DNA of 64,000 nt from Cryobacterium soli (GTDB lineage Bacteria > Actinomycetota > Actinomycetes > Actinomycetales > Microbacteriaceae): contig NZ_CP030033.1 of NCBI RefSeq assembly GCF_003611035.1, forward strand, positions 1,426,001 through 1,490,000, written 5' to 3'. A program made the translations under genes and the position numbers. The stretch's first letter is position 1, and every line of letters begins with the position of its first letter. Positions 53,171-64,000 of this stretch are shown one piece after another. The notes beneath the pieces are model-generated. The model was not told where the DNA came from and did no database searches. It saw only the letters and a program-made list of their open reading frames with translations.

Positions 53171-54796
53171 ATGGCCACCTCGAATGCCACACCAGACAGC
53201 ACCCCGGATCACACCCCGGATGATGCCGAACGCCTCACCGGACACTCCGCCACGGCCGGCGTTACCGACGAGCCGGACGACTATGCGGATCCGGTCGCGG
53301 AAGCGATCAGCGCGGTCATCGACCCGCTGATCGAGAACGAGAAGGCCATCGCAGCGGGGTACGCCGAGCGCACTCGGCTCCTGGCCGAGCTGGACCGGCT
53401 CGGCCACGACCGGAGGATCATCGCCGGCCTCTGCGGTGACCCCATCGAGTCCGGCCGGGGCGACCCCGACACCCAGAAACACGGCCCGGCGTGGGACGAC
53501 GTTGAGTTGGCCCGTCGGGCGATGGCTGCCGAGGTCGGTTGTGCGTTGCGGATGCATTTCCAGACCGCCGGCATGATGATCTTCGACGCCGCCCGGCTCA
53601 CGGAGCAACTACCGCGGTTCCACCGGGCGTTGGCGGAGGGCCGGATCGGCTGGGGCCACGTGATGAAGATGCTCGACGTCACCGCCGCCCTCCCCGTCGA
53701 CCTGCCCGACCATGTGCTGCCGAAGCTCGAACAGATGACGCTCACGGCGGCGGAGAAACTCACTCCCGGCAAGTTCGGCAAGGTCGCCCGGGAACTCCTG
53801 GAATCCCTCCACCCGATCCCGCTGCAGGAGCGGGTCAACGCCGGCATCCGCGAACGCCGGGTGGTGCTCCGCCCCGACATCAACGGGATGTCGTGGCTGA
53901 ACGCGTACCTCAAGGCCGACGAAGCCCAGGCGATCTACGAACGCCTCACCCAGATCGCGAAAACCCTCAACGACGACGCAGAAGCCGACGTCACGACCAG
54001 CGAGACCACCGGCGCCGCGCCCGGCGCTGCGCCCGGCGCTGCGTTCACCGCGCCGCGGCCCGACGCTACCGTCCGCCGCTCCCGCGACCAGCGCCGCGCC
54101 GACGCCTACCGCGACCTGCTGCTGGACGGTATCGGCCCCGACGGAAAACTCGGCCGCGGTATCCGCGGCACCGTGCACATCACCGTCCCGGTGCTCACTT
54201 TGCTCGGCCAGAGCGACCAACCGGCGATCCTCGACGGTTACGGGCCCATCGACCTGGAGACCGCCCGGCGCCTCACCGGTACGGCGACGAGTTTCACCCG
54301 CATCCTCACCCACCCGACCACCGGCTGCGTCCTCTCCGTCGACCGGGAGTCGCATAACCCGCCGGCGGATCTGCGCCGGTACGTGCAGATCCGCGACAAC
54401 ACCTGCCAAACCCCCGGCTGCAACCGCCAAGCCGTCTACAGCGAGATCGACCACACCCAGGCGTGGAACACCGGCGGCCCCACCAGCGCCACCAACCTCG
54501 TCAGCCTCTGCCGACCCGACCACCGGCTCAAACACCAAAGCAGCTTCACCACCCGACAAGCCCCCGACGGCACCCTCACCTGGACCAGCCCCGGCGGCAA
54601 GACCTACACAAACCCCCGCGCCCACGACCTCGTCCGCGCCGCCCTCCAGCCGCCCGCGACAACGCAGCCGCCCGGGCAACCAGCACAGACAAAGCCGCCG
54701 AAGATAGCCGGGCCGACACCCACCACCATGTCACCACCCCTCTCCCTACCGGTTTCTGGGCCTCCTCCCGAGCCCGACGAGACCCCGCCCTTCTAG
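53171..54796 (+). CDS. DUF222/13E12-family HNH endonuclease-like protein
   Basis: A 541-residue protein with an N-terminal DUF222 domain and a C-terminal HNH nuclease motif: CQTPGCNRQAVYSEIDHTQAW followed by NLVSLCRPDHRLKH. The Cys pair, His and Asn expected for metal binding are present. A Pro/Thr-rich tail follows. These proteins are multicopy in many actinobacteria (13E12 repeat family), and their function is unresolved. A triplet-repeat-like stretch, AAPGAAPGAA, lies in the middle. The ATG at 53171 gives the usual start. Confidence 0.88.
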   Translation: MATSNATPDSTPDHTPDDAERLTGHSATAGVTDEPDDYADPVAEAISAVIDPLIENEKAIAAGYAERTRLLAELDRLGHDRRIIAGLCGDPIESGRGDPDTQKHGPAWDDVELARRAMAAEVGCALRMHFQTAGMMIFDAARLTEQLPRFHRALAEGRIGWGHVMKMLDVTAALPVDLPDHVLPKLEQMTLTAAEKLTPGKFGKVARELLESLHPIPLQERVNAGIRERRVVLRPDINGMSWLNAYLKADEAQAIYERLTQIAKTLNDDAEADVTTSETTGAAPGAAPGAAFTAPRPDATVRRSRDQRRADAYRDLLLDGIGPDGKLGRGIRGTVHITVPVLTLLGQSDQPAILDGYGPIDLETARRLTGTATSFTRILTHPTTGCVLSVDRESHNPPADLRRYVQIRDNTCQTPGCNRQAVYSEIDHTQAWNTGGPTSATNLVSLCRPDHRLKHQSSFTTRQAPDGTLTWTSPGGKTYTNPRAHDLVRAALQPPATTQPPGQPAQTKPPKIAGPTPTTMSPPLSLPVSGPPPEPDETPPF

Positions 54797-54887
54797 CCCG
54801 CATCCGCGCACCCGGTGCGTCTCCGCTCCCCCGCCCCTCTGAGGGGCCAACACCGCAGCCCAGGGATGCTAACCTAGAGTTTCCTGG

Positions 54888-54959
54888 GCCCCCATAGCTC
54901 AGGGGATAGAGCACTGCCCTCCGGAGGCAGGGGCGGCAGTTCGAATCTGCCTGGGGGCA
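54888..54959 (+). tRNA. tRNA-Arg (anticodon CCG)
   Basis: A 72-base cloverleaf. The acceptor stem is GCCCCCA with TGGGGGC. The anticodon stem is CTGCC with GGCAG around the loop CTCCGGA, giving anticodon CCG. The T arm contains GTTCGAATC. The discriminator is A, and CCA is not encoded. A TAACCT hexamer lies about 12 bases upstream. It is the last core gene before the accessory region and 31 bp from the recombinase stop. Confidence 0.96.
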
Positions 54960-54990
54960 CACTTCTTGGGGCCACGCCGCTCGGTGCCTA

Positions 54991-55620
54991 TCAGTCGGCG
55001 TCCTCGCTTTCCGCTGTCTCTCCCCCGGCTTGATCTGACATCAGTCCCAGGGTGCGGGCGCGACGATAGAAGGTGGCGCGGGACATCCCGAAATCGCGCA
55101 CTACCTGTGCCGTCGGCTCTCCGGCTTCGATGAGTCGGTTGGCGTTACGGATTTGTCGGTTCGTGATTCTTCGTGGCCGGCCACCAAGATTCTTGCCGGC
55201 CCTGCGGCGCCTGTCGATCGAGTCGAGCACGCGCTCGCGCTTGATTTCGTGCTCCATCTGCCCCAGAGCAGCCATGGTCGTGTACAGCATGGATCCCGGC
55301 TGTGTCGCCGTGTCGACGTCGCCGCCGCCAAAATCGAGGACTCGAAGCTCAACCCCGCGGCTGCTCAGGCTTTCGGCGAAGGCAAGCACATTCTGCGTCG
55401 ATTTGCCCAGCCGGTCTAAAGACACGATCACGAATGTGTCGCCAGGCTCAAGCGCCATGACAGCGAGATCAAGCTGAGGACGAGGTGCCCGTGCTCCAGA
55501 ACTCCCCTGATCGATATATAGGTCGTCACGCCGCACGCCCGCCGCCAAGAGTTCGGCCCGCTGTCCGTCCGTGGCTTGCTGCCGAGTCGAGATTCGGGCG
55601 TATCCAATCAGCTTGATCAC
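54991..55620 (-). CDS. Resolvase/invertase-family serine recombinase
   Basis: A 209-residue small serine recombinase, the size of Pin/Hin/gamma-delta enzymes. The catalytic domain spans about 1-135, with nucleophile Ser11 in YARISTRQQ. The DRLGRS motif appears as DRLGKS (69-74), so the second Arg is Lys73. MEHEIKRERV starts the long E helix. A helix-turn-helix follows at about 155-190 (AQVVRDFGMSRATFYRRA). The GTG at 55620 has AAGGAG six bases upstream; the longer open frame runs through the site-like sequences and is rejected. It faces the tRNA and backs onto the repeat array, as IntI does in integrons. Confidence 0.94.
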   Translation of the reverse strand: MIKLIGYARISTRQQATDGQRAELLAAGVRRDDLYIDQGSSGARAPRPQLDLAVMALEPGDTFVIVSLDRLGKSTQNVLAFAESLSSRGVELRVLDFGGGDVDTATQPGSMLYTTMAALGQMEHEIKRERVLDSIDRRRRAGKNLGGRPRRITNRQIRNANRLIEAGEPTAQVVRDFGMSRATFYRRARTLGLMSDQAGGETAESEDAD

Positions 55621-55634
55621 AGCACTCCTTCGTT

Positions 55635-55696
55635 GTCTCATAACTGATACTGCGCACCGCAATTTAAGCCAACGGTTATGCGACGTAGTTACGAGA
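55635..55696 (-). repeat. Site-like inverted repeats in the recombinase promoter region
   Basis: GTCTCATAAC (55635-55644), GTTATGCGAC (55675-55684) and GTTACGAGA (55688-55696) match the half-site of the array modules (GTCTCGnAACC and inverse). They lie 15-76 bp upstream of the recombinase start, where resolvases often bind to repress their own gene. Confidence 0.6.
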
Positions 55697-55754
55697 TTCG
55701 ACTCGCCCAACATGGAGATAATTTCAGAGGAAGCCCAGATCAAGGCTTGGAGAT

Positions 55755-55780
55755 GTCTCGAAACCCTAGGGTTTCGAGAC
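55755..55780. repeat. Perfect 26-bp palindrome near the recombinase
   Basis: GTCTCGAAACCC, central TA, and the exact inverse. The half-sites match those of the downstream array, but the centre is TA, whereas array cores have AT. Size, symmetry and a 2-bp centre fit the crossover site of a serine recombinase. This is a candidate primary recombination site. Confidence 0.75.
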
Positions 55781-55973
55781 ACAATTCGCACTTGAATGGG
55801 CCTGGAATGAAAGGCTGGTGCGCCGGCACCGTAGCAGCGATCCTCGGCTATGGTCGCGCGACGAACTCGGGTGAATCCGTGAGCGTAGTCGGAAACAACG
55901 GAAGCACCTGCAGCTCAGAGGATTGGGCGTACAGTCACGGAACACGAGCCGACTCGGCTTCGAAGCGGAGGTT

Positions 55974-56279
55974 ATGTTGACCATTCTGATGGGAGTGCTG
56001 TTGGTGGTCGCGGGACTGGTTGTATCTACATTTTCAGGGGTTGTCGAGGCACGCGCTGCAAGCGGGCTGCAGGTCACTTTGTGGAAGAATCCGACGGGGT
56101 ATCGACGCCCATTGGCCAGCTCACTCCTGCTCGTGGCTGCCACGCTACTTGTTGGTATCGGGGCATTCTTTCTCCTTCTCGACTGGGGGCCGGCGGCTAT
56201 GTTGTTACTCAGCCTGGTCTTCGTACCTCCTTTCTTGGTCGTCGCAATTCACAACAGATCAAATAAGGCGAGCACATAG
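55974..56279 (+). CDS. Small membrane protein, cassette 1
   Basis: A 101-residue protein with an N-terminal helix (MLTILMGVLLVVAGLVVSTF) and two more helices at about 41-62 and 68-90 (LASSLLLVAATLLVGIGAFF; AAMLLLSLVFVPPFLVVAI). Unknown family. The ATG at 55974 has GGAGG two bases upstream, too close for good use; TTG 55923 is open in the same frame. A strong hairpin follows the stop. Confidence 0.6.
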   Translation: MLTILMGVLLVVAGLVVSTFSGVVEARAASGLQVTLWKNPTGYRRPLASSLLLVAATLLVGIGAFFLLLDWGPAAMLLLSLVFVPPFLVVAIHNRSNKAST

Positions 56280-56285
56280 CGCTGT

Positions 56286-56308
56286 CGCTGGGTGAGTTTC
56301 ACCCAGCG
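56286..56308 (+). terminator. Hairpin after cassette 1 gene
   Basis: CGCTGGGTG, 5-base loop AGTTT, CACCCAGCG: a 9-bp perfect stem starting 7 bases after the stop. No T-run follows. Confidence 0.45.
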
Positions 56309-56340
56309 CGACGATGGTCTGGTCGCGTGATACCACGACC

Positions 56341-56382
56341 GGGCATAGCGGTGAAATCCTCGTATCCCATGGGATGGGAGAC
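56341..56382 (+). repeat. Array module 1 (42 bp, left arm degenerate)
   Basis: Core CTCGTATCCC, then ATGGGATGGGAGAC. The outer left half-site (GTCTCGTTACC in the consensus) is not recognisable, and no right module follows. Confidence 0.75.
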
Positions 56383-56441
56383 GTAAAAGATGCTTCTCGC
56401 CTCCGATGCCCCGGAAACTGAAGGTGGACCAGCTTGGCCGC

Positions 56442-56636
56442 ATGACAACCCGAACCGCAACAGCAGTGCTCGTGCGGGCCATCCTCTGGTTCGTCGCTGG
56501 GGTAGCTCTCTCGATCTACGGGGAGTCTCTGTGGTGGCGGTTGTCAGGTGTCCTCTTGTATGCGCCAGCCATCGGCCTGATCATCTGGGCAGGACGCTCA
56601 CTCCGCGCTGCACGTAACAGAATCGACCATGCATAG
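56442..56636 (+). CDS. Small membrane protein, cassette 2
   Basis: A 64-residue protein with two membrane helices (TAVLVRAILWFVAGVALSIY and LSGVLLYAPAIGLIIWAG) and a basic tail. No known family. The ATG at 56442 is chosen because CAGCTTGGC precedes it with the same spacing as TAGCTTGGC before the 56849 gene; ATG 56406 is the alternative. Confidence 0.5.
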   Translation: MTTRTATAVLVRAILWFVAGVALSIYGESLWWRLSGVLLYAPAIGLIIWAGRSLRAARNRIDHA

Positions 56637-56657
56637 CTGGCTCCCACAAGGGATGGT

Positions 56658-56699
56658 GTCTCCTAACCGCAGCGCCTAATAACCCATGGGATACGAGAC
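56658..56699 (+). repeat. Array module 2 (42 bp)
   Basis: Begins GTCTCCTAACC, core AATAACCC then ATGGGATACGAGAC. A decayed right module seems to follow at about 56762-56810 (GGCGACTAATCT near its start, TCGGTAGG near its end). Confidence 0.85.
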
Positions 56700-56848
56700 G
56701 GTGGTGTCGATGCCGATGACAGCCGGACAAGCGTTTCATCCCTAGGCGCGTGACGGCCGGTGGCGACTAATCTGACGAGTATCTCCGTCCCAGTCGGTAG
56801 GTGAAAGATCAGATCAGATCGAATATTCCCTTGTGCTAGCTTGGCGAA

Positions 56849-57061
56849 ATGACTTGGGATGCATCCGCCGTTGGAGCAATGTGGTTAACCGTCGCTATTC
56901 TCGCTGGAGGCTATGCGCGCACACGTAACAGATCCGCTTGGACCTGGTTTCTCTTGACGCTGTTTCTGGGGCCGTTGGCGGCATATCTGCTCGTGGTATG
57001 GCCCACCCGTGAACGCATCACGGCCGGCACTGAACTGACGAACGGGCCCTCCGCCAGGTAG
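56849..57061 (+). CDS. Small membrane protein, cassette 3
   Basis: A 70-residue protein with two helices (VGAMWLTVAILAGGYA and AWTWFLLTLFLGPLAAYLLVVW) separated by RTRNRS, a layout seen in phospholipase_D-nuclease-N-like or PLDc_N small proteins, though too short to assign. TAGCTT ends six bases before the ATG, so the transcript is probably leaderless. Confidence 0.6.
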   Translation: MTWDASAVGAMWLTVAILAGGYARTRNRSAWTWFLLTLFLGPLAAYLLVVWPTRERITAGTELTNGPSAR

Positions 57062-57128
57062 CTAACGGATGCCCCCAACTGGCAACGCCGAAGCTTGACC
57101 ATTGCCTTCCTCGACAAGTGAGGAACGT

Positions 57129-57201
57129 GTCGCGAAACCTAACCGCCGCATATCCCATGGGATACGAGACACCGGGGTCTCGGTGCGTAGGGTTTCGAGA
57201 A
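57129..57201 (+). repeat. Array module 3 with a shortened right module
   Basis: The 42-bp left module (57129-57170) starts GTCGCGAAACC and ends ATGGGATACGAGAC. Only 6 bp later the core of the right module appears: GTCTCGGTGC, GTA, GGGTTTCGAGA. The 40-bp spacer and one half-site are missing. Confidence 0.85.
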
Positions 57202-57267
57202 AGCAGCTGTATCGTGCCGGTGACGTATCGCTCGGCTGAGAGCGTAGGGCAGCAAAGCAGCCAGGCT

Positions 57268-57467
57268 CTAGCGCTCTTCGTTTGACTTCGCTCGGAACCA
57301 GACCAAGAGCCCTGCCACCACGAGGCCGAGTCCTGCAAATCGGCCCAAGTAAAGCGCGAGAGAGTCTCTTGGCAAGAAGCCCGCAAGCAAAATCGTCGAA
57401 AGAAGAACGATTCCCCCAGAATGAGGAGGCTGAGCACAACCTTGCGCGCTCGAGTCTTACCTCGCAT
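57268..57467 (-). pseudogene. Small membrane protein with a -1 frameshift, cassette 4
   Basis: A strong ribosome site (GGAGGAG) precedes ATG 57467, and the frame reads MRGKTRARKVVLSLLILG. At a run of five G (57417-57413) the hydrophobic coding character moves to the -1 frame, GIVLLSTILLAGFLPRDSLALY then LGRFAGLGLVVAGLLVWF, ending at TAG 57268. Joined, it is a 66-residue protein with two membrane helices. A lost G, a sequencing error or programmed slippage could explain it. The zero frame continues without TM character. Confidence 0.55.
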
Positions 57468-57798
57468 CACTCCTCCTTCATTGGCCTTCTAGCCGAGCGC
57501 GACTGTAACTAGCGGGTCGTCGCATACACGGACGCGCTTTGATTAGTGCTTCAGGCCATGTCCAAAAACTATGCTCATCAGCTCACATCCGGTAGGTCTT
57601 GCCGACGTGACTATCAGAAGCTGCCTCCTCACGGCCCGGAACGTCTGGTGCTTCAAAACCGATGCGTCTTGGACGGTATGGGATGTGAGGCCAGCACGTA
57701 GCCATGCCAGCCACCAGATTTTCGCCTCGCCGCCGCACAGGGGCAGCCTGCGGTCGATTCCCGTATTCAGAATGGCAGGTCATAGGTATGGTCCAGAT

Positions 57799-58020
57799 AT
57801 GGCAGACCCAACCCCCACTCCTGAAACGAAGGGTGCTCAATCAAAGAGCATCTACGGATGGCAAATCGCTAGCAGCAGCCTCCTGATCGTCTCGATGACT
57901 TGCACCGCGCTTGCTTCAGTTGGCTCGGGGATCTTCGTTGCAGCAATCGTCATCGGCCTCTCGGCAGTCGTCCTGCTGATCATTTCAGTCGTTCAGTTTC
58001 GTCGCCACAGACGGCTGTAG
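57799..58020 (+). CDS. Small membrane protein, second gene of the module 3-4 segment
   Basis: A 73-residue protein: a polar start (MADPTPTPETKGAQSKS), then two helices (WQIASSSLLIVSMTCTALA and IFVAAIVIGLSAVVLLIISVV), and a basic end QFRRHRRL. Unknown family. TATGGT ends six bases before the ATG, in leaderless geometry. The 331 bp before it hold only weak similarity to the repeats (near 57590-57690). Confidence 0.6.
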   Translation: MADPTPTPETKGAQSKSIYGWQIASSSLLIVSMTCTALASVGSGIFVAAIVIGLSAVVLLIISVVQFRRHRRL

Positions 58021-58079
58021 CTGCGCCTCTCGACGAACAGCTTCTTGCCGAGAGCCCGGACTGGATCCGTTCGCAATGT

Positions 58080-58204
58080 GTCTCATTACCCGAGTGCTCC
58101 ATAACCCATGGGATTCGAGACGCTCGAGGTCGACTGTTCCCGCGGCGGGCGACGGTGACTTGTCTCGCATCCGGACCTGTCTCGGATCGGTACGGTTATG
58201 AGAC
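58080..58204 (+). repeat. Array element 4, full length (125 bp)
   Basis: Left module 58080-58121 (42 bp) starts GTCTCATTACC and ends ATGGGATTCGAGAC. The spacer is 40 bp. The right module 58162-58204 (43 bp) starts GTCTCGCATC, contains GGACCTGTCTCGGATC, and ends GGTTATGAGAC. Each module holds two direct half-sites and one inverted half-site. Confidence 0.9.
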
Positions 58205-58247
58205 AAGCACGTATGCCAGCCACAGTGGGATTGAGAGCGCTAGCGAA

Positions 58248-58705
58248 TTACTGCTGGAAGATGATGTCCGCTACCGATGTCATCACCAAGACGTCTGATT
58301 CCGAGTTCTCGACGCAGCTGCGGATATCGTCGACTTTGAATCGGTCGTCAAGCGTGCCGGCCTTCATATAGAAACCGTGCGACTCGCTGAGGAGTTGTCC
58401 CACTGTGGCTTGGCCGTTTGGCCAGACGAGTGCGACCGGGTCTGCACCCTCAAGAACCCCGAATTCCGGCCAAACCACTGGAGCGGTCTTTCGTCATCTA
58501 AGGAGATCGAGACACAGGAGTCGTCGAAAACGATTGTGCCGGTCACTGGTATTGGTTCGTAGGGCGCGTCAGGAATTACCTTGGCTGACAGCATGATGGG
58601 GCTGGTTGGCGGGGAATTGGCTGGCGGTGTCGGGGACGCTGCGCAACCGGACAGCCCAAGCGCGACCACTCCAGCGCCTGCAAGCCACCTTGCGGACTTC
58701 ATCAT
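58248..58705 (-). pseudogene. Small lipoprotein with a -1 frameshift, cassette 5
   Basis: The zero frame from 58705 gives a lipoprotein signal (VVALGLSGCAAS, Cys21), a Pro linker and a domain ending SISLDDERP. Near 58477 the sensible sequence moves to the -1 frame: VVWPEFGVLEG, ALVWPNGQATVGQLL, SCVENSESDVLVMTSVADII, ending at 58248. Joined length is about 152 residues. Similar small secreted domains occur in actinobacterial lipoproteins. No slippery heptamer is evident, so a real frameshift or a sequence error is more likely than recoding. Confidence 0.55.
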
Positions 58706-58933
58706 CTTGTACCCCTTAGGAGGGCTAGATCCATATCGCCACCGGTCCTATTGTGGAGCCGCCGTGGGGCTAATCGCTGGATGAGTCATCTCATCCCTTA
58801 ATGTCCTGAACCAGTGGATTAGTTTCAAACGGCCCCGAACTCGGAATATAGCGAGAATGGACCCCGGTCACCACATCGCTGTAGACATGAGGGCTCTCGG
58901 TTCATCCGACTACACGACATATTCGCAGGCAGC

Positions 58934-58975
58934 GTCTCCAAACCAAAGCGCCTCATAAGCCATGGGATGCAAGAC
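58934..58975 (+). repeat. Array module 5 (42 bp)
   Basis: Begins GTCTCCAAACC, core CTCATAAGCC then ATGGGATGCAAGAC. A decayed right module end may follow at 58981-59005 (ATCGGTGGGATAAAAGC). Confidence 0.85.
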
Positions 58976-59074
58976 ACCGCGCGAGCCAATCGGTGGGATA
59001 AAAGCGGATCCACCCATAAAGTCCGAGCGTCCAGAAGCTGAGGGGCTAGGCTCCCAGCAACGAAGGGTGTAGTC

Positions 59075-59221
59075 ATGAGAGTCCTCCGCAGAGTCGGACG
59101 TGCGCTTAGCCTGGTGGTTCTCACGATCGCAAAGACCATCGGCGGCATGTCAGAGAAGAAGACCTTCGACCACGACAACGCCACGTCGGCCTACGCGCGC
59201 CGCGAGAGTTATCGGCCGTAG
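59075..59221 (+). CDS. Very small protein, cassette 6
   Basis: A 48-residue reading frame filling the 282-bp segment between two array elements. It starts MRVLRRVGRALSLVVLTIAK (one short hydrophobic stretch with a basic N-terminus) and ends in a polar tail SAYARRESYRP. Support: TAGGCT hexamer at 59047-59052 and GAAGGG seven bases before the ATG. Unknown family. Confidence 0.4.
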   Translation: MRVLRRVGRALSLVVLTIAKTIGGMSEKKTFDHDNATSAYARRESYRP

Positions 59222-59257
59222 CAGAATCCGCTCTGGACGCTTGCGCTCGAGATGGTG

Positions 59258-59383
59258 CCTCGTTACCTGCGCGCCTCGAAACCTATGGGATACGAGACAT
59301 AGGACATTGCCCTGCGACGCCTCGAGCGGCAGGCGACTTGTCTCAAATCTTGACCTGTCTCGCATCGGTAGGGTTATGAGACG
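59258..59383 (+). repeat. Array element 6, full length (126 bp)
   Basis: Left module 59258-59299 starts GCCTCGTTACC and ends CTATGGGATACGAGAC. The spacer is 41 bp. Right module 59341-59383 starts GTCTCAAATC and ends GGTAGGGTTATGAGAC. Confidence 0.9.
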
Positions 59384-59434
59384 CTGGTGAACTTTTTTCG
59401 ACTCCAGCAGCAACTGGACCTTTCAGAGTGGACG

Positions 59435-60160
59435 CTAGCCGGTCCGACGGACATACATCAGGGGTGTGCCAACGACGAAGCACAGGATGCAGCTCCCGAC
59501 CAGTGCCATTACCAGGCCGCCTTGCGGGTGCCCCTGGAAAGTGCCAATGAGAACAACAACCGCTCCAGCCAAGGCAAGAACGACGCCGCACAACACGAGC
59601 GCACCACCAAGACGAGCTGATCGAGAGAACCCCGATCGAGAGGTCCCTGCTGCAGTGATATCGCGGCCGGATCCGTCCGGCTCTCGCGGGAGCGTCGTCG
59701 GCGGTGTCAGTATCCGGTCACTGTGTCGTCTCGCAGTTTCGAAGGCCACAGGTGACGGGTGGGCGACGTAGCTGCCGGGCTGTGGGACGCCTGCGATAAC
59801 CATGAAGTCATCGAATCGGTCCGGGCGAACCAGGTACATCGTGGGAACGGTCTTGTAAGTGGAGTACATGCTCAAGCCAATGTGCTGTGCCGCGAGTGCT
59901 CCCGCACGCCGTTTCAAAACTGTTCCGACGACCATTGCACCCATCACGACCGGGAGCACTCCCACGAAACCGACGACGAGTAGCGCAGCACCGTACTGCT
60001 CCGGCGCAGACACCATACGGCCTCCGAAAGTAGCCAACATGATGGTTCCGATGCCCGCTGCCACCGCCCCAAACATGATCGGGTCGGCCCTACGGCGCAC
60101 TCTCGCTGCTTCCGAGCCGATTCGCTGAACCCACGCGTCGGTTTCTTCGCCCTTAGGCAT
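59435..60160 (-). CDS. Four-helix membrane protein of unknown function
   Basis: A 241-residue protein. Two helices near the N-terminus (FGAVAAGIGTIMLATFGG; ALLVVGFVGVLPVVMGAMVV) and two near the C-terminus (LGGALVLCGVVLALAGAVVV; GGLVMALVGSCILCFVVG) flank a soluble part of about 100 residues. ATG 60160 has GAGGAAA at good spacing; the upstream open frame is not supported. Unknown family. Confidence 0.7.
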   Translation of the reverse strand: MPKGEETDAWVQRIGSEAARVRRRADPIMFGAVAAGIGTIMLATFGGRMVSAPEQYGAALLVVGFVGVLPVVMGAMVVGTVLKRRAGALAAQHIGLSMYSTYKTVPTMYLVRPDRFDDFMVIAGVPQPGSYVAHPSPVAFETARRHSDRILTPPTTLPREPDGSGRDITAAGTSRSGFSRSARLGGALVLCGVVLALAGAVVVLIGTFQGHPQGGLVMALVGSCILCFVVGTPLMYVRRTG

Positions 60161-60302
60161 TGATTTCCTCGTTTCGGCGACTGTCGAGTGCGGAGTGGCA
60201 GGTGCTCGTATGCGCGACGATTGACACCTTAGGACATGGGACGGCAATCGCATGATCGATGTGCGTGACCACCGGCTCCGGGAGGTCGCATATGCTCGGG
60301 CC

Positions 60303-60791
60303 ATGTCGCGAAGATTTTCGCTAGCCACCCGAACAACTGTTGGCTTGATGGGCGGGCTCGTTTCAGCGTGGCTGCTGGCGGGGTGCAGCCTCCTCGAGCT
60401 GAGGACGTCGTCTCCCGACGAGGTCGAGACAGCGAACCTGCGGATCTCAGCTGATCAGATCAGCTACTCCTTCGACGGCTACTGCGGAGTCGGAGTGAAA
60501 ATCGAGAACGTCAGCCCCACGCCGATCGAGTTCAACGAAAGCGACCTTGCAGTCTTCGACGGCTCAAGCTCGACCGAGTGGGATCTTCCCTTTGGCGGTC
60601 GCGCCGGATCAGTGACGCCGGAGCACCGAGGTTATGCAATCGGCGAGTTCCCCTCGATCATCGAGCCGGGCGGCACCGCTACGGATGCCTTCGTCGTGTA
60701 CTGCAAGGAAGGCAACACGTACACAGTCACCGTCGCCTCATTCGACGGCGACAGCGCCTCATTCGATTTCACCAGCACGCCAGGCGGTTGA
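60303..60791 (+). CDS. Predicted lipoprotein with an Ig-like domain layout
   Basis: A 162-residue protein. The signal peptide ends in a lipobox (AWLLAGC, Cys near residue 29). The mature domain has two Cys (YCGVGV and VYCKEG) and alternating beta segments (VGVKIENVSPTPIEFNESDL; TATDAFVVYCKEGNTYTVTV), resembling secreted DUF4352/DUF4232-type domains. TATGCT ends six bases before the ATG at 60303, in leaderless geometry. Confidence 0.7.
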   Translation: MSRRFSLATRTTVGLMGGLVSAWLLAGCSLLELRTSSPDEVETANLRISADQISYSFDGYCGVGVKIENVSPTPIEFNESDLAVFDGSSSTEWDLPFGGRAGSVTPEHRGYAIGEFPSIIEPGGTATDAFVVYCKEGNTYTVTVASFDGDSASFDFTSTPGG

Positions 60792-60877
60792 CATGGGCGC
60801 AACTACGATCGGGCTCCAGCGGGCTCCTGCTGGTCGTCGTCCTGTGCATCTGCGCCGGGCTGTTGTTCGGCGTATAG
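60788..60877 (+). CDS. Possible 29-residue membrane peptide overlapping the lipoprotein stop
   Basis: A TTG overlaps the preceding stop (TTGA) and opens a short frame with one clear hydrophobic helix, GLLLVVVLCICAGLLFGV. It could be a coupled small membrane protein or the remnant of a longer C-terminus. No separate ribosome site is visible. Confidence 0.25.
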   Translation: MTWAQLRSGSSGLLLVVVLCICAGLLFGV

Positions 60878-61212
60878 GTGCCGGGTTGTTGCGTATGGGT
60901 ATCCGCGTGCGGGCGCCGACTCCTTCTCTGAGCCCTTGAAGTGAACCTATTCCGTGCGCTCGCGGATGCGCATACGGGCGAGTATCCCGAAATGGGGGCA
61001 GAACGCGAGGATCGGGGACCAGAAGTGGATGGAGCTTGCCATTACAGTCGCAAAAGGAGCCGTGTTGTTCTTTCGCCCGGACAGAGGAGGACGATCAGAC
61101 GACCCGCTCCGTTGTTCCAACGCCAATGCAACTGCGGATAGGACCTGATGCGGATCGACTGCGCACCTTCGCCAGGCGACTAGGCATGTTCAGCGTCGTT
61201 GGCTAGAGACCC
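60878..61212 (+). other. Gene-poor stretch
   Basis: About 335 bp with no convincing gene. A 64-codon frame (60954-61148, GTG start, contains WMELAITVAKGAVLFF) may be a gene remnant. No copy of the array module is recognisable. Confidence 0.35.
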
Positions 61213-61253
61213 TAGATACCCCGTCTGTCCGTTTCGTTCAAAGGATTCGCCGT
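61213..61253 (+). promoter_or_regulatory. Shared leader of the first paralogous lipoprotein
   Basis: TAGATA hexamer, then TTCAAAGGATTCGCCG with a ribosome site (AAAGGA) 8 bases before the ATG. The same arrangement, with few changes, precedes the gene at 62548. Confidence 0.5.
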
Positions 61254-62408
61254 ATGCGCACGACCCGGACTGGCCGCATCGCCCTCACGCCGGGTGTTTT
61301 GCTCGTCATCGTGGTCCTCAGCGGATGCACCGCGGGGCGCCCGATAGAACCGTCAGCGTCAGTCGCACCAACACCAGCGGCAGCGAGCGTGTACACCTGC
61401 GACGACATTGCCGCCCTCGATGACGTGGCACCCGTTTTCGTCACCGCCGACGGAACCGCGCCGACCCCGGTTGCCGCGATCCAGCCAGCGCTTAACCTCA
61501 TTGACTACGCCGTGCCAGCCCTGGGCGGTCTGTCCTGCTCCTGGCGGGTCGGCCCGGCGGCAACCACTCCGTTGTACGACCCCGTCGATTTCGACTGGGC
61601 TTACGTCAGCGTCAAGGTAGTTCCCGGCGGCGCCGACTCCTGGGCGCCCAACACGGTGGGCGACGACGCCTTATCGGTCGGCGACGGCCCTTTCGACACC
61701 GCGATGACCATCGGAGGCATTGAAGCGGCGACCGGGTGCGGCTACGACACCGGCTGCTTCATCAGCGCGCCGGTCGGCGATGCCTGGGTCGAAATCGTGT
61801 TGAGCACGAACTGGATCCAACGCGACGGTTGGTATTTCTCCGGGCTGACGCCCGACGCGATCCTGGCGCAGATGCAGCCGCTCGCGGCATCCGTTTTCAC
61901 CGCTCTGACGGATGCTCAGCCCGGCCAGTTGGTCTGGCCGACGGTCGATCTGGTCGAACACGAACCGGACTGCACCCGCGCGCTCGGGTCGGAGGGCATC
62001 GCCACGGCCCTCGGCGTCGACTCGCTCGACTACGAAGTCCGGTCCGTATCAAGCGGCTCGACCTCCTTCGAAAACTACGTGTCGCAGCGGTCCGAGGTAT
62101 TCAACTGCGCTGTGCAGGCCGACGGCGTCCCGGTCGACTTGATCGCCGCCGGGGTTCTGGGTACGTCGGTCACGGTCGGTTACGACCTGGCCGGACTCGT
62201 CGACACGATGGTCTCCACACCAGACAGCCAGGCCCTGCCGACGATTGCGCTGAAGGGCGCGGTCGAGGGTGAGCACGCCGTGCAGATGTGCTCCGACATA
62301 ACACCGTTCTGCATCGTGATCTTCTCACTCGGCCAGTCGGCCTACCAGGTCGCGTCGAACAGCGACACGGTGGCTATCGCCGAAGCGATCATCGCCCACA
62401 CCCGCTAG
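61254..62408 (+). CDS. Predicted lipoprotein, 384 residues
   Basis: Signal peptide with lipobox (VIVVLSGC, Cys near residue 25), an Ala/Pro linker, then two apparently related halves. Each half begins with a Cys-Asp or Asp-Cys segment (YTCDDIAAL; EPDCTRALG) and includes further Cys (LSCSWRVG, CGYDTGC, FNCAV, MCSDITPFC), so several disulfides are likely. The halves resemble the DUF3558-like layout of actinobacterial lipoproteins, at low certainty. The first 15 residues and leader are shared with the next gene. Confidence 0.72.
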   Translation: MRTTRTGRIALTPGVLLVIVVLSGCTAGRPIEPSASVAPTPAAASVYTCDDIAALDDVAPVFVTADGTAPTPVAAIQPALNLIDYAVPALGGLSCSWRVGPAATTPLYDPVDFDWAYVSVKVVPGGADSWAPNTVGDDALSVGDGPFDTAMTIGGIEAATGCGYDTGCFISAPVGDAWVEIVLSTNWIQRDGWYFSGLTPDAILAQMQPLAASVFTALTDAQPGQLVWPTVDLVEHEPDCTRALGSEGIATALGVDSLDYEVRSVSSGSTSFENYVSQRSEVFNCAVQADGVPVDLIAAGVLGTSVTVGYDLAGLVDTMVSTPDSQALPTIALKGAVEGEHAVQMCSDITPFCIVIFSLGQSAYQVASNSDTVAIAEAIIAHTR

Positions 62409-62507
62409 TGGTCATGTTTGCAAGTTCGTCGAGGGTTATTGACTGTCCGGCACCGCGCCACTGTCAATGGACGACAGCCCCCATCGCCTGACTGGCAAAA
62501 GAGACCT

Positions 62508-62547
62508 TAGATGCACCTTCTGTCCGTTCATTCAAAGGATTCGCCGC
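62508..62547 (+). promoter_or_regulatory. Shared leader of the second paralogous lipoprotein
   Basis: TAGATG hexamer and TTCAAAGGATTCGCCG before ATG 62548, nearly the same as before the gene at 61254. Confidence 0.5.
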
Positions 62548-63156
62548 ATGCTCAAGACCCGGACTGACCGCATAGCCCTCACCGCGCTGCTGATGCTGCC
62601 CACTCTCGCGCTCGTAGGATGCGCCGAAGGGGCCGCCGAGGCTCCGGAGCCCACTGTGGCCAGCGCACCCGCGTCGAGCTCGACCCCGACTGCAACCCCC
62701 CAAGCCGAAGCGGCGGAACCTGTGTGGCCAAACGACCGGTGTCAGGACGAACAGCTCGCCGCTGAGCTTGTGGAGCGTCCCGCGCTTTCTACAGCGACCC
62801 GGGAGGGGCTCGCGATCGTGCTCACGAACGTGTCGGAGCAATCCTGCTCCTACTACGGGGGACCAGGAGTGCTGTTGCTCGGCGCCGACGGCACCAATCT
62901 GGCCAGCCGTGACGACAAGATATTGGGCCCCATCGAGCCGGAGGCCGGGACGCTCGCCCCGGGCGAGTCGGCCCAGGTGGAAGCGCTCCTCACGTACGTC
63001 GCCACGTACGACTGCACGCCGGCGACCGTGACGACCATCCGGGTGCTCGTCACATCGGACGGTGCTGGCCCGGGCATCGACGCGCCAGCCGATCTGCAGG
63101 TCTGCGGCGATGCTTGGACCGACTTCACGGTCGGGTCACTCGTTCCTGCATCCTGA
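62548..63156 (+). CDS. Predicted lipoprotein with a DUF4232-like domain
   Basis: A 202-residue protein. The signal peptide (MLKTRTDRIALTALLMLPTL) ends in LALVGC (Cys near 26), then an Ala/Pro/Thr linker and a C-terminal domain with the DUF4232 pattern: RCQDEQLAAEL, FLTNV-like VLTNVSEQSCSYYGGPGVLL, and a late Cys (LQVCGDAW). Function unknown; DUF4232 domains are secreted beta-sandwich folds. The upstream in-frame start at 62467 is not used because the ribosome site is at 62548. Confidence 0.75.
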   Translation: MLKTRTDRIALTALLMLPTLALVGCAEGAAEAPEPTVASAPASSSTPTATPQAEAAEPVWPNDRCQDEQLAAELVERPALSTATREGLAIVLTNVSEQSCSYYGGPGVLLLGADGTNLASRDDKILGPIEPEAGTLAPGESAQVEALLTYVATYDCTPATVTTIRVLVTSDGAGPGIDAPADLQVCGDAWTDFTVGSLVPAS

Positions 63157-63222
63157 CTCCGCCGGATGCCGCGCTGCGCTCGGCAGGCAGTCGTCCTGTC
63201 GAGACTGCACATCTGAAGCACT

Positions 63223-63264
63223 GTCTCGTTACTCATGTGTGTCATATCCCATGGGTTACGTGAC
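63223..63264 (+). repeat. Array module 7 (42 bp)
   Basis: Begins GTCTCGTTAC, core GTCATATCCC then ATGGGTTACGTGAC. No right module follows; the next gene's stop lies 5 bp away. Confidence 0.85.
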
Positions 63265-63268
63265 GCAG

Positions 63269-63646
63269 CTAGTCAGCGTCCCATGCCCGTTTTGGTGGGG
63301 AGTTGGAGTATGCCCACAGCACCATACTCATCATGAACGCAAGAACGCCACTCCCCATCAAGCCCATCGCGGGCACTACCAGGTACGGACTGAAAGTGCT
63401 CCTCTCCGGCATTAAATATATCCAGAGTCCGCATGAGAACCCAGTGGCGGAGACGAGCAGTGCGGTCGGGCCGAACCGCAAGAAATGCCAGAGGACTCCG
63501 CGTGGTGGGGTTTCGGTGTTTGCTAAGCGGTTGTTCATGTGCTGGGCGAGAAGCCACCAAGTGAATATTGCCGGGGTGAGGGTCAATGAGATAGCGAGGA
63601 CGAGCCAGAACACAACTGAACCAACGGGAGACTCCACTGGATCCAC
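63269..63646 (-). CDS. Membrane protein with three or four helices, cassette 7
   Basis: A 125-residue protein with helices VVFWLVLAISLTLTPAIFTW, GPTALLVSATGFSCGLWIYL and VVPAMGLMGSGVLAFMMSMV. Unknown family. GTG 63646 is chosen for the GAGGAGG about 11 bases upstream; the frame is open to 63685 with a TTG start. It fills the segment between modules 7 and 8 almost completely. Confidence 0.6.
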   Translation of the reverse strand: MDPVESPVGSVVFWLVLAISLTLTPAIFTWWLLAQHMNNRLANTETPPRGVLWHFLRFGPTALLVSATGFSCGLWIYLMPERSTFSPYLVVPAMGLMGSGVLAFMMSMVLWAYSNSPPKRAWDAD

Positions 63647-63741
63647 CGAATCACTACCCTCCTCGTGCCATCGCACTATGTGCAAACCCTCGCTGAGCGT
63701 ACAAAAAAGTCATCTGGCCCGAGCACGAACTAAGACGAGAT

Positions 63742-63867
63742 GTCTCGTATCTTATGTGCCTCGTATCCCATGGGTTTCGAGACAAAGGAGACCGCCTGTG
63801 CGGCGATCGAGCTGCAGGTCATTTGTCTCGCATCTGGACCTGTCTCGAATCCGTAGGGTTGCGAGAC
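63742..63867 (+). repeat. Array element 8, full length (126 bp)
   Basis: Left module 63742-63783 starts GTCTCGTATC and ends CCATGGGTTTCGAGAC. The spacer is 41 bp. Right module 63825-63867 starts GTCTCGCATC and ends GTAGGGTTGCGAGAC. The remaining 133 bp to the window edge show no gene. Confidence 0.9.
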
Positions 63868-64000
63868 ACAGATCGTTGCCGTGAGAGCAGCGCTGCGAAT
63901 CGCCGCGAAACGAAACTGGTCAACCGTCAGGTTTGCGAGTAGTTGCGTTCCTTTCGGAGCGAAGTGTGCGCAATTATCAGAGGGCTAATGGGCACGCAAT

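Follow-up and report, generated by a model that had tools for sequence, protein, structure and literature searches.

Can a small serine recombinase run a chromosomal array of gene cassettes in the manner of an integron? Integrons are the best-known chromosomal platforms for storing and reordering gene cassettes, and they use a tyrosine recombinase and folded single-stranded sites. The question is raised by a locus in the complete 4.39-Mb chromosome of Cryobacterium soli (G000), within the 64-kb stretch C1:1426001-1490000, hereafter the window. Here a tRNA-Arg(CCG) gene is followed, after a gap of 30 bp, by a minus-strand gene for a recombinase, by a palindromic site that we call primary and by an array of related core sites in one orientation. 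Based on the comparisons described below, the locus is probably an integron-like chromosomal cassette platform run by the small serine recombinase. A first-pass annotation of the window had noticed a small resolvase-family recombinase beside tRNA-Arg and eight repeats of one orientation, spaced by 0.3-4 kb. The recombinase indeed matches the Pfam families Resolvase PF00239 (E 2e-29) and HTH_7 PF02796, the eight repeats are the A-type cores of Table 1, and the spacings are correct. The observation is confirmed, and the locus is larger than was claimed: it also holds the palindrome at 55754-55781, three B-type sites (58178, 59356 and 63841) and an extension of the array, with weaker sites, up to about 71360 (G000:C1:1497360; positions past the window end are given in window numbering).

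The sites were located by scanning for 28-bp cores made of two half-sites (consensus TGTCTCGNAACCC) that face each other, with a scoring derived from the sites themselves. Twelve cores were found in the window, all inside 55754-63868, against a chance expectation of 0.03 on average and 1 at most in 100 first-order Markov simulations. They comprise one primary site, eight A-type sites with the centre AT and three B-type sites with the centre TA. A half-site starts 16 bp upstream of the core in seven of the eight A-type sites (one of them weak) and 17 bp upstream in the B-type sites, and each B core lies 83-84 bp past an A core. A search of the whole genome for the A-type pattern, with one mismatch allowed, gave 13 matches, 10 of them (nine sites) in the array and 3 elsewhere, and the reversed pattern used as a control gave 1. 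In 46 regions chosen for having recombinase or pattern matches, 238 of 257 cores are centred AT or TA. A half-site at 16 bp accompanies 142 cores (135 with AT), and one at 17 bp accompanies 50 (38 with TA, 8 with AT); an A site precedes 30 of the latter by 73-93 bp, and 24 of those by 83-85 bp. In all, 173 oriented sites lie in regions that have three or more of them, and 166 point in the main direction of their region. The consensus of a site is a palindrome plus a half-site, and both the sites and their polarity are established at the level of sequence.

Whether DNA is exchanged at these sites was addressed by comparing 300 bp on each side of every core. With a low threshold, only the left flank is shared in 399 site pairs and only the right flank in 461, many of them reflecting the common A-B stretch; at 140 bp or more, 78% identity and in register, there are 30 right-shared pairs (20 families) and 32 left-shared pairs (21 families). 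Among A sites whose half-site starts 16 bp upstream, the 12 right-shared pairs agree at 0.89 of right half-core positions (random pairs, 0.69) and at 0.54 of left half-core positions (random, 0.66). The 17 left-shared pairs agree at 0.94 in the half-site, 0.82 in the spacer, 0.89 in the left half-core and 0.68 in the right half-core (random, 0.69). Homology switches within the central 8 bp of the core, as site-specific exchange would predict, and junctions within the palindromic cores, which the first-pass annotation had proposed to look for, are what the alignments reveal, with one half-core shared and the other not. Additionally, 40 blocks are homologous between arrays, and 49% of their 160 ends fall within 40 bp of a core centre, about six times the 8% expected; nine of the 40 have all four ends at cores. 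In the window itself, the DNA to the right of the A core at 63238 is also found in G017 (97%, 300 bp) and G041 (92%, 171 bp) next to different left neighbours, and its own left neighbour is found in G056 ahead of different DNA. Likewise, the right flank of the second A site matches a site at 71221 (87%, 85 bp), and the left flanks differ. These comparisons give good support to exchange at the cores.

Two simpler explanations of the repeats can be weighed against the same data. The repeats are similar and dispersed, and could be short homologies over which ordinary homologous recombination shuffles the nearby DNA; however, random A pairs agree at 0.66-0.74 of half-site and half-core positions, and we regard this process as highly improbable because the switch is confined to the central 8 bp, an interval too short, and a change too abrupt, for homologous recombination. 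Being intergenic, the palindromes might instead be regulatory repeats, operators for some DNA-binding protein, and the recombinase might be there by chance, but this would leave unexplained both the flank exchange at the core centre and the presence, in most relatives, of a core ahead of the recombinase gene, and it is exceedingly improbable.

The locus was then compared among 57 genomes of the genus, in which the array genomes are different species with one genome each. Some resolvase match at E<=1e-20 is present in 49 of them, and ten have a copy at least 78% identical. The tRNA-Arg(CCG) gene occurs in all ten stretches with such a copy and in none of the 21 further stretches with a recombinase or an array that were scanned. 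It lies at most 0.1 kb from the recombinase in six genomes and 1.6-4.4 kb away in four (G017, G035, G056 and G038). The left flank (argS where the stretch reaches it) is shared by eight of the nine others, the ninth contig (G056) beginning 386 bp before the tRNA. On the right, a block from near G000:C1:1511356 is common to G005, G018, G035, G038 and G044, and the distance from the recombinase to this block is about 12 to 61 kb in those five genomes and about 30 kb in G000. Seventeen of the 63 cassettes of the ten regions recur in another region (half length, 75% identity), and cassettes are found in other arrays next to different neighbours. At least three forward A-pattern matches occur in nine genomes, all within the ten, and in none of the 47 others (p ~1e-9, with both cut-offs picked after the counts were known and kinship ignored by the statistic); the reversed pattern has no match in the 57. 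These alignments establish a conserved locus with variable content and with cassettes common to several species. Strong variation in gene content had been predicted between strains; it is seen here between species, in ten genomes with the same recombinase, tRNA-Arg and repeats and different gene sets. Among the 47 genomes without the chromosomal recombinase, 16 gave stretches of 2.8-20 kb downstream of tRNA-Arg, which have varied content, no core and no clean empty site.

Other loci of the genus differ in their arrangement. The longest array seen here, of about 57 kb, is in G038 (L092, L093, L042 and L043; C1 ~760-817 kb). G001 has a second array (L054, contig C41) by a 70% identical recombinase near the contig end, and G041 has three A-type sites far from the tRNA-Arg locus (L059, C1 ~875-882 kb) in a 20-kb stretch without a recombinase. 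G051, which has no array at tRNA-Arg, has a piece of a 65% identical recombinase 13 kb downstream of this gene (L163, C1 ~2389 kb).

The protein encoded next to tRNA-Arg has a resolvase N-terminal domain, HTH_7 and the catalytic Ser of a small serine recombinase, and its closest PDB sequence matches are a DNA-invertase entry, which we take to be Gin, and gamma-delta resolvase. The list of open reading frames (ORFs) places its start at GTG 55791; GTG 55620 was taken instead because close relatives are 209 aa long. We infer that this neighbouring recombinase is likely the enzyme acting at the cores, because a site stands before its own gene, the two co-occur and the core resembles Tn3 site I, with which the A consensus has 17 of 28 identities, central AT included (at most 16 for the best single 28-mer of the window). 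When a core scoring at least 15 was sought within 330 bp upstream of the recombinase, it was found for 38 of 47 relatives (at least 57% identity) versus one of ten distant recombinases; two of the nine relatives without it have less than 260 bp of upstream sequence. The first-pass annotation had proposed that the recombinase inserts, excises or shuffles cassettes at the repeats. Exchange at the cores stands, the identity of the enzyme is likely, and the proposal is qualified by the B sites and by the loss of Arg71, both discussed below.

In the mechanism we propose, the enzyme would bind half-sites of the above consensus, two of which, back to back, would make the 28-bp resolvase-type core, to be cut at its central dinucleotide. 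An A-type site, with its direct half-site followed by an AT-centred core, would close each cassette, and A x A exchange in direct orientation would allow a cassette to leave as a circle or to enter. Since an AT centre reads identically on both strands, it is the half-site, present on one side only, that can hold the array to a single orientation. Some cassettes also have a TA-centred B site 83-85 bp past the A core, and as its centre matches the TA of the primary site, B x primary exchange would take up a circle beside the enzyme. We infer a circle intermediate and a division of labour between A and B sites. That the same DNA can follow either a primary site or a B-class site is suggested by a few cases, as the DNA past the primary site in G035:C33 is the DNA past a B-class site in G005 (94%, 500 bp).

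Several observations weigh against an integron-like platform run by the neighbouring enzyme. The comparisons use one genome per species, and the kinship of the ten genomes is ignored in the statistics. Nineteen of the 257 core centres are neither AT nor TA, 41 site pairs are alike on both sides at the low threshold, and half of the block ends lie away from sites. G041 has the recombinase and three sites and no recognisable primary site, the array in G203 has no recombinase match at E<=1e-40 in its genome, and that in G252 has a recombinase relative in pieces. The B-class partner core in G005 has the centre TG, not TA, so a simple centre-matching rule would disallow its exchange with G035:C33 unless the centre changed later, and the second primary-site case, G001 compared with a TA core without a half-site inside the G056 array, reaches 77% identity only. 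Capture at the primary site comes down to these two cases, one strong with a TG-centred B partner and one at 77% identity, and the B-site route of capture is so far a speculative hypothesis. The enzyme itself is also unusual. The position of Tn3 R71, proposed to contact the scissile phosphate in an excerpt of PMC4499144, is K in the window enzyme and K, Q, M or A in all ten chromosomal copies. It is R in 33 of 34 other scorable relatives, the exception being L081 with Q, and three are unscorable. A further conserved arginine, at what we take to be R45, is replaced by Cys in the G001 enzyme. Membership of the resolvase family, judged by fold, is not in doubt despite the replacement of Arg71; given this replacement and the Cys of G001, the chromosomal enzymes may work slowly or depend on help.

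A damped chromosomal enzyme and help in trans are both possible, and with Arg71 lost in the chromosomal copies, related recombinases may act in trans. The array could then move by site-specific recombination mobilised by Arg71 relatives, some of them plasmid-borne, and the chromosomal enzyme would be weakened or regulatory. The distribution of Arg71 among the copies is as this predicts, and copies with Arg71 have identical 500-bp array-side DNA by three recombinase sides (L086 = L114; L087 and L088; L120), with TA centres. Relatives of 56-73% identity also occur in 28 plasmid records of ten genera, and seven of eight plasmid stretches have an upstream core, the eighth having an IS30 gene there and a full A site beyond; few of the eight have array sites. 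On the other hand, the median ratio of nonsynonymous to synonymous substitution rates (dN/dS) is 0.19 among nine chromosomal orthologues (36 pairs), versus 0.13 among 25 other relatives, and the chromosomal copies are therefore kept as proteins. The residues aligned to those we number as Arg8, Ser10 and Arg68 are kept in these nine copies, and large arrays coincide with the chromosomal copy. Mobilisation in trans as the full account is rather unlikely. The integron-like platform may also be elaborated, tentatively and as a possibility that we do not favour, into an independently evolved integron of two registers, in which TA-centred B sites would capture at the primary site and AT-centred A sites would excise and shuffle. 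Damped platforms that have lost Arg71 would store cassettes, and Arg71 relatives on plasmids of several Micrococcales genera would move them.

Two further observations concern these relatives. The pattern at L086, L087, L088, L114 and L120 can be read as exchange at primary sites among Arg71 relatives. The primary-site centres of four plasmid loci (L094, L095, L098 and L099), judged by eye, are AA, TG or AT, not TA, and perhaps mark separate compatibility groups.

What the array carries was assessed on A-to-A segments, those over 6 kb being dropped, with a codon-usage gene caller at a strict threshold. The 108 cassettes have a median length of 1.23 kb (5-95%: 0.47-3.96 kb), none of the 108 cassette starts is spanned by a called gene, and 35 cassettes have no called gene at this threshold. 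Of 125 called genes, 65 run with the site direction and 60 opposite to it; the gene polarity of integron cassettes was looked for and not found. The best 25 of 109 Pfam families include GNAT acetyltransferases (6 members), sigma-70 regions, small multidrug-resistance proteins, antitoxins and transposases, and the best 25 of 54 PADLOC families include an oligonucleotide cyclase, a 2TM effector and the PDC-S02 candidate. The transposase families among the 125 cassette proteins, together with an enzyme and core of resolvase kind and the relatives on 28 plasmid records, would fit res sites left behind by inserted elements, either plasmid-dimer resolution systems or transposons. However, the sites are in one orientation, at the ends of shared units, and flank mostly non-transposon genes, and the res of a transposon would sit inside the element rather than at each end. 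No transposase was found by Pfam among ten window ORFs scanned, and the many sites here contrast with the single res of a Tn3-type system. An origin as remnants is improbable.

An integron-like platform run by a serine recombinase invites comparison with known systems. The locus resembles integrons in a recombinase divergent from the array with an adjoining primary site (an analogue by position), in one-orientation sites at the ends of cassettes of about 0.5-4 kb, in a variable chromosomal platform and in the occurrence of an array without its own recombinase (G203). It differs in using a serine rather than a tyrosine recombinase, in having two site classes, in cassette genes that run both ways, and in palindromic cores with a 2-bp centre where attC sites, compared by description only, are folded and single-stranded. 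A search of 54500-64000 with Rfam, in which no attC model was run, matched the tRNA alone. The integrase model IntI (TIGR02249) gave no match above cut-off in the ten array genomes; weaker matches occur in all ten and in 14 control genomes. Because there is no IntI over the cut-off, the sites are of resolvase type and genes lie in both directions, the locus is not a canonical integron, and the primary site, site-bounded cassettes and platform described for integrons in an excerpt of PMC8618304 are matched in function.

Tn3 and gamma-delta resolvases resolve cointegrates, and their res has sites II and III. The locus shares with them the enzyme family and a 28-bp site with central AT and TGTC ends, but they are not known to have cassette arrays, and a single half-site stands here in place of sites II and III. 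The 28-bp length and central AT of Tn3 site I are given in the part of PMC4499144 cited above. The DNA invertases Hin and Gin are close in that the top PDB sequence matches of the recombinase are DNA-invertase entries; the sites here, unlike theirs, are direct repeats, and Hin uses hix sites together with an enhancer to which Fis binds (PMC3798978, in excerpt). An inversion system was rejected for the lack of inverted flanking sites, the sites being direct in the window and in the great majority of oriented sites elsewhere (166 of 173). The dif modules (pdif) of Acinetobacter plasmids, which use XerC/XerD, are likewise bounded by recombination sites, exchange at the site and must match in their spacers, but as described in an excerpt of PMC13141974 they rely on host tyrosine Xer enzymes, alternate in site orientation and are plasmid-borne. 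The staphylococcal cassette chromosome (SCC), with its Ccr enzymes, shares a serine recombinase and cassette-like gene movement, but the recombinase here is small, and the match to the CcrB model is far under cut-off. SCC elements use large serine recombinases (Ccr) and a single chromosomal insertion point.

No description of a cassette array run by a serine recombinase was found among listings and abstract openings of the open-access literature, subscription papers and preprints being outside this scope. If the reading is true, the cassette-platform design arose twice, with different chemistry and double-stranded sites, and bacteria would have a new way to swap genes. It would suggest that genes move among Actinobacteria by a route so far overlooked, on cassettes that include acetyltransferase and defence-like genes. 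In addition, a compact recombinase with short sites of two centre types could be a possible tool.

Across the family, 32 of 398 Microbacteriaceae genomes, from 15 of 85 genera, have matches to the A pattern, many of them a single one, and the reversed-pattern control matches three of the 398. A recombinase match at E<=1e-40 is present in 14 of the 25 A-pattern genomes outside the genus. The G203 array (L055, C1 ~1127-1136 kb) has eight oriented A-class sites and looks like an orphan integron array. Viral carriage was considered and rejected: the eight pattern stretches found in viral contigs include no relative, and the 82 phage records that match the recombinase are all below 60% identity and, among the names listed, mostly enterobacterial.

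Table 1. Features of the cassette locus in window coordinates; membrane-like and lipoprotein-like are impressions.
Feature	Position	Strand	Remarks
tRNA-Arg (CCG)	54888..54960	+	left anchor of locus
Small serine recombinase (resolvase/invertase family), 209 aa, GTG start	54991..55620	-	divergent from array; Pfam PF00239, PF02796
Primary (attI-like) site, perfect 28-bp palindrome, centre TA	55754..55781	.	no direct half-site; 133 bp upstream of recombinase start
Cassette ORF, small, membrane-like	55974..56279	+	primary site to A1; no Pfam match, scanned from 55977
A-type core 1, centre AT	56356..56383	+	half-site absent; core scan
Cassette ORF, 76 aa	56406..56636	+	nothing over Pfam cut-off
A-type site 2	56657..56700	+	half-site + core 56673-56700
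Cassette ORF, 70 aa	56849..57061	+	nothing over Pfam cut-off
A-type site 3	57128..57171	+	half-site + core 57144
A-type site 4	58079..58122	+	half-site + core 58095
B-type site 1, centre TA	58161..58205	+	half-site 17 bp upstream; core 58178; 83 bp after A4
Cassette ORF, lipoprotein-like	58364..58705	-	opposite orientation; gene caller chose overlapping ORF 58248-58478
A-type site 5, weak half-site	58933..58976	+	core 58949; unoriented under stricter half-site threshold
A-type site 6	59256..59299	+	half-site + core 59272
B-type site 2	59339..59383	+	core 59356; 84 bp after A6
Cassette ORF, membrane-like	59435..60163	-	opposite orientation; ORF list, not picked by gene caller
Cassette ORF, lipoprotein-like	60303..60791	+	ORF list, gene caller
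Cassette ORF, lipoprotein-like	61254..62408	+	ORF list, gene caller
Cassette ORF with DUF4232	62467..63156	+	Pfam above cut-off
A-type site 7	63222..63265	+	core 63238; right flank in G017, G041; left flank in G056
Cassette ORF, membrane-like	63269..63685	-	opposite orientation; ORF list, not picked by gene caller
A-type site 8	63741..63784	+	core 63757; A7-A8 cassette present in G017 too
B-type site 3	63824..63868	+	core 63841; 84 bp after A8

Within the window, the 5-prime parts of two neighbouring cassette genes (61205-61337 and 62500-62631) are repeats that are 72-86% alike, and they likely reflect a duplication inside one cassette.

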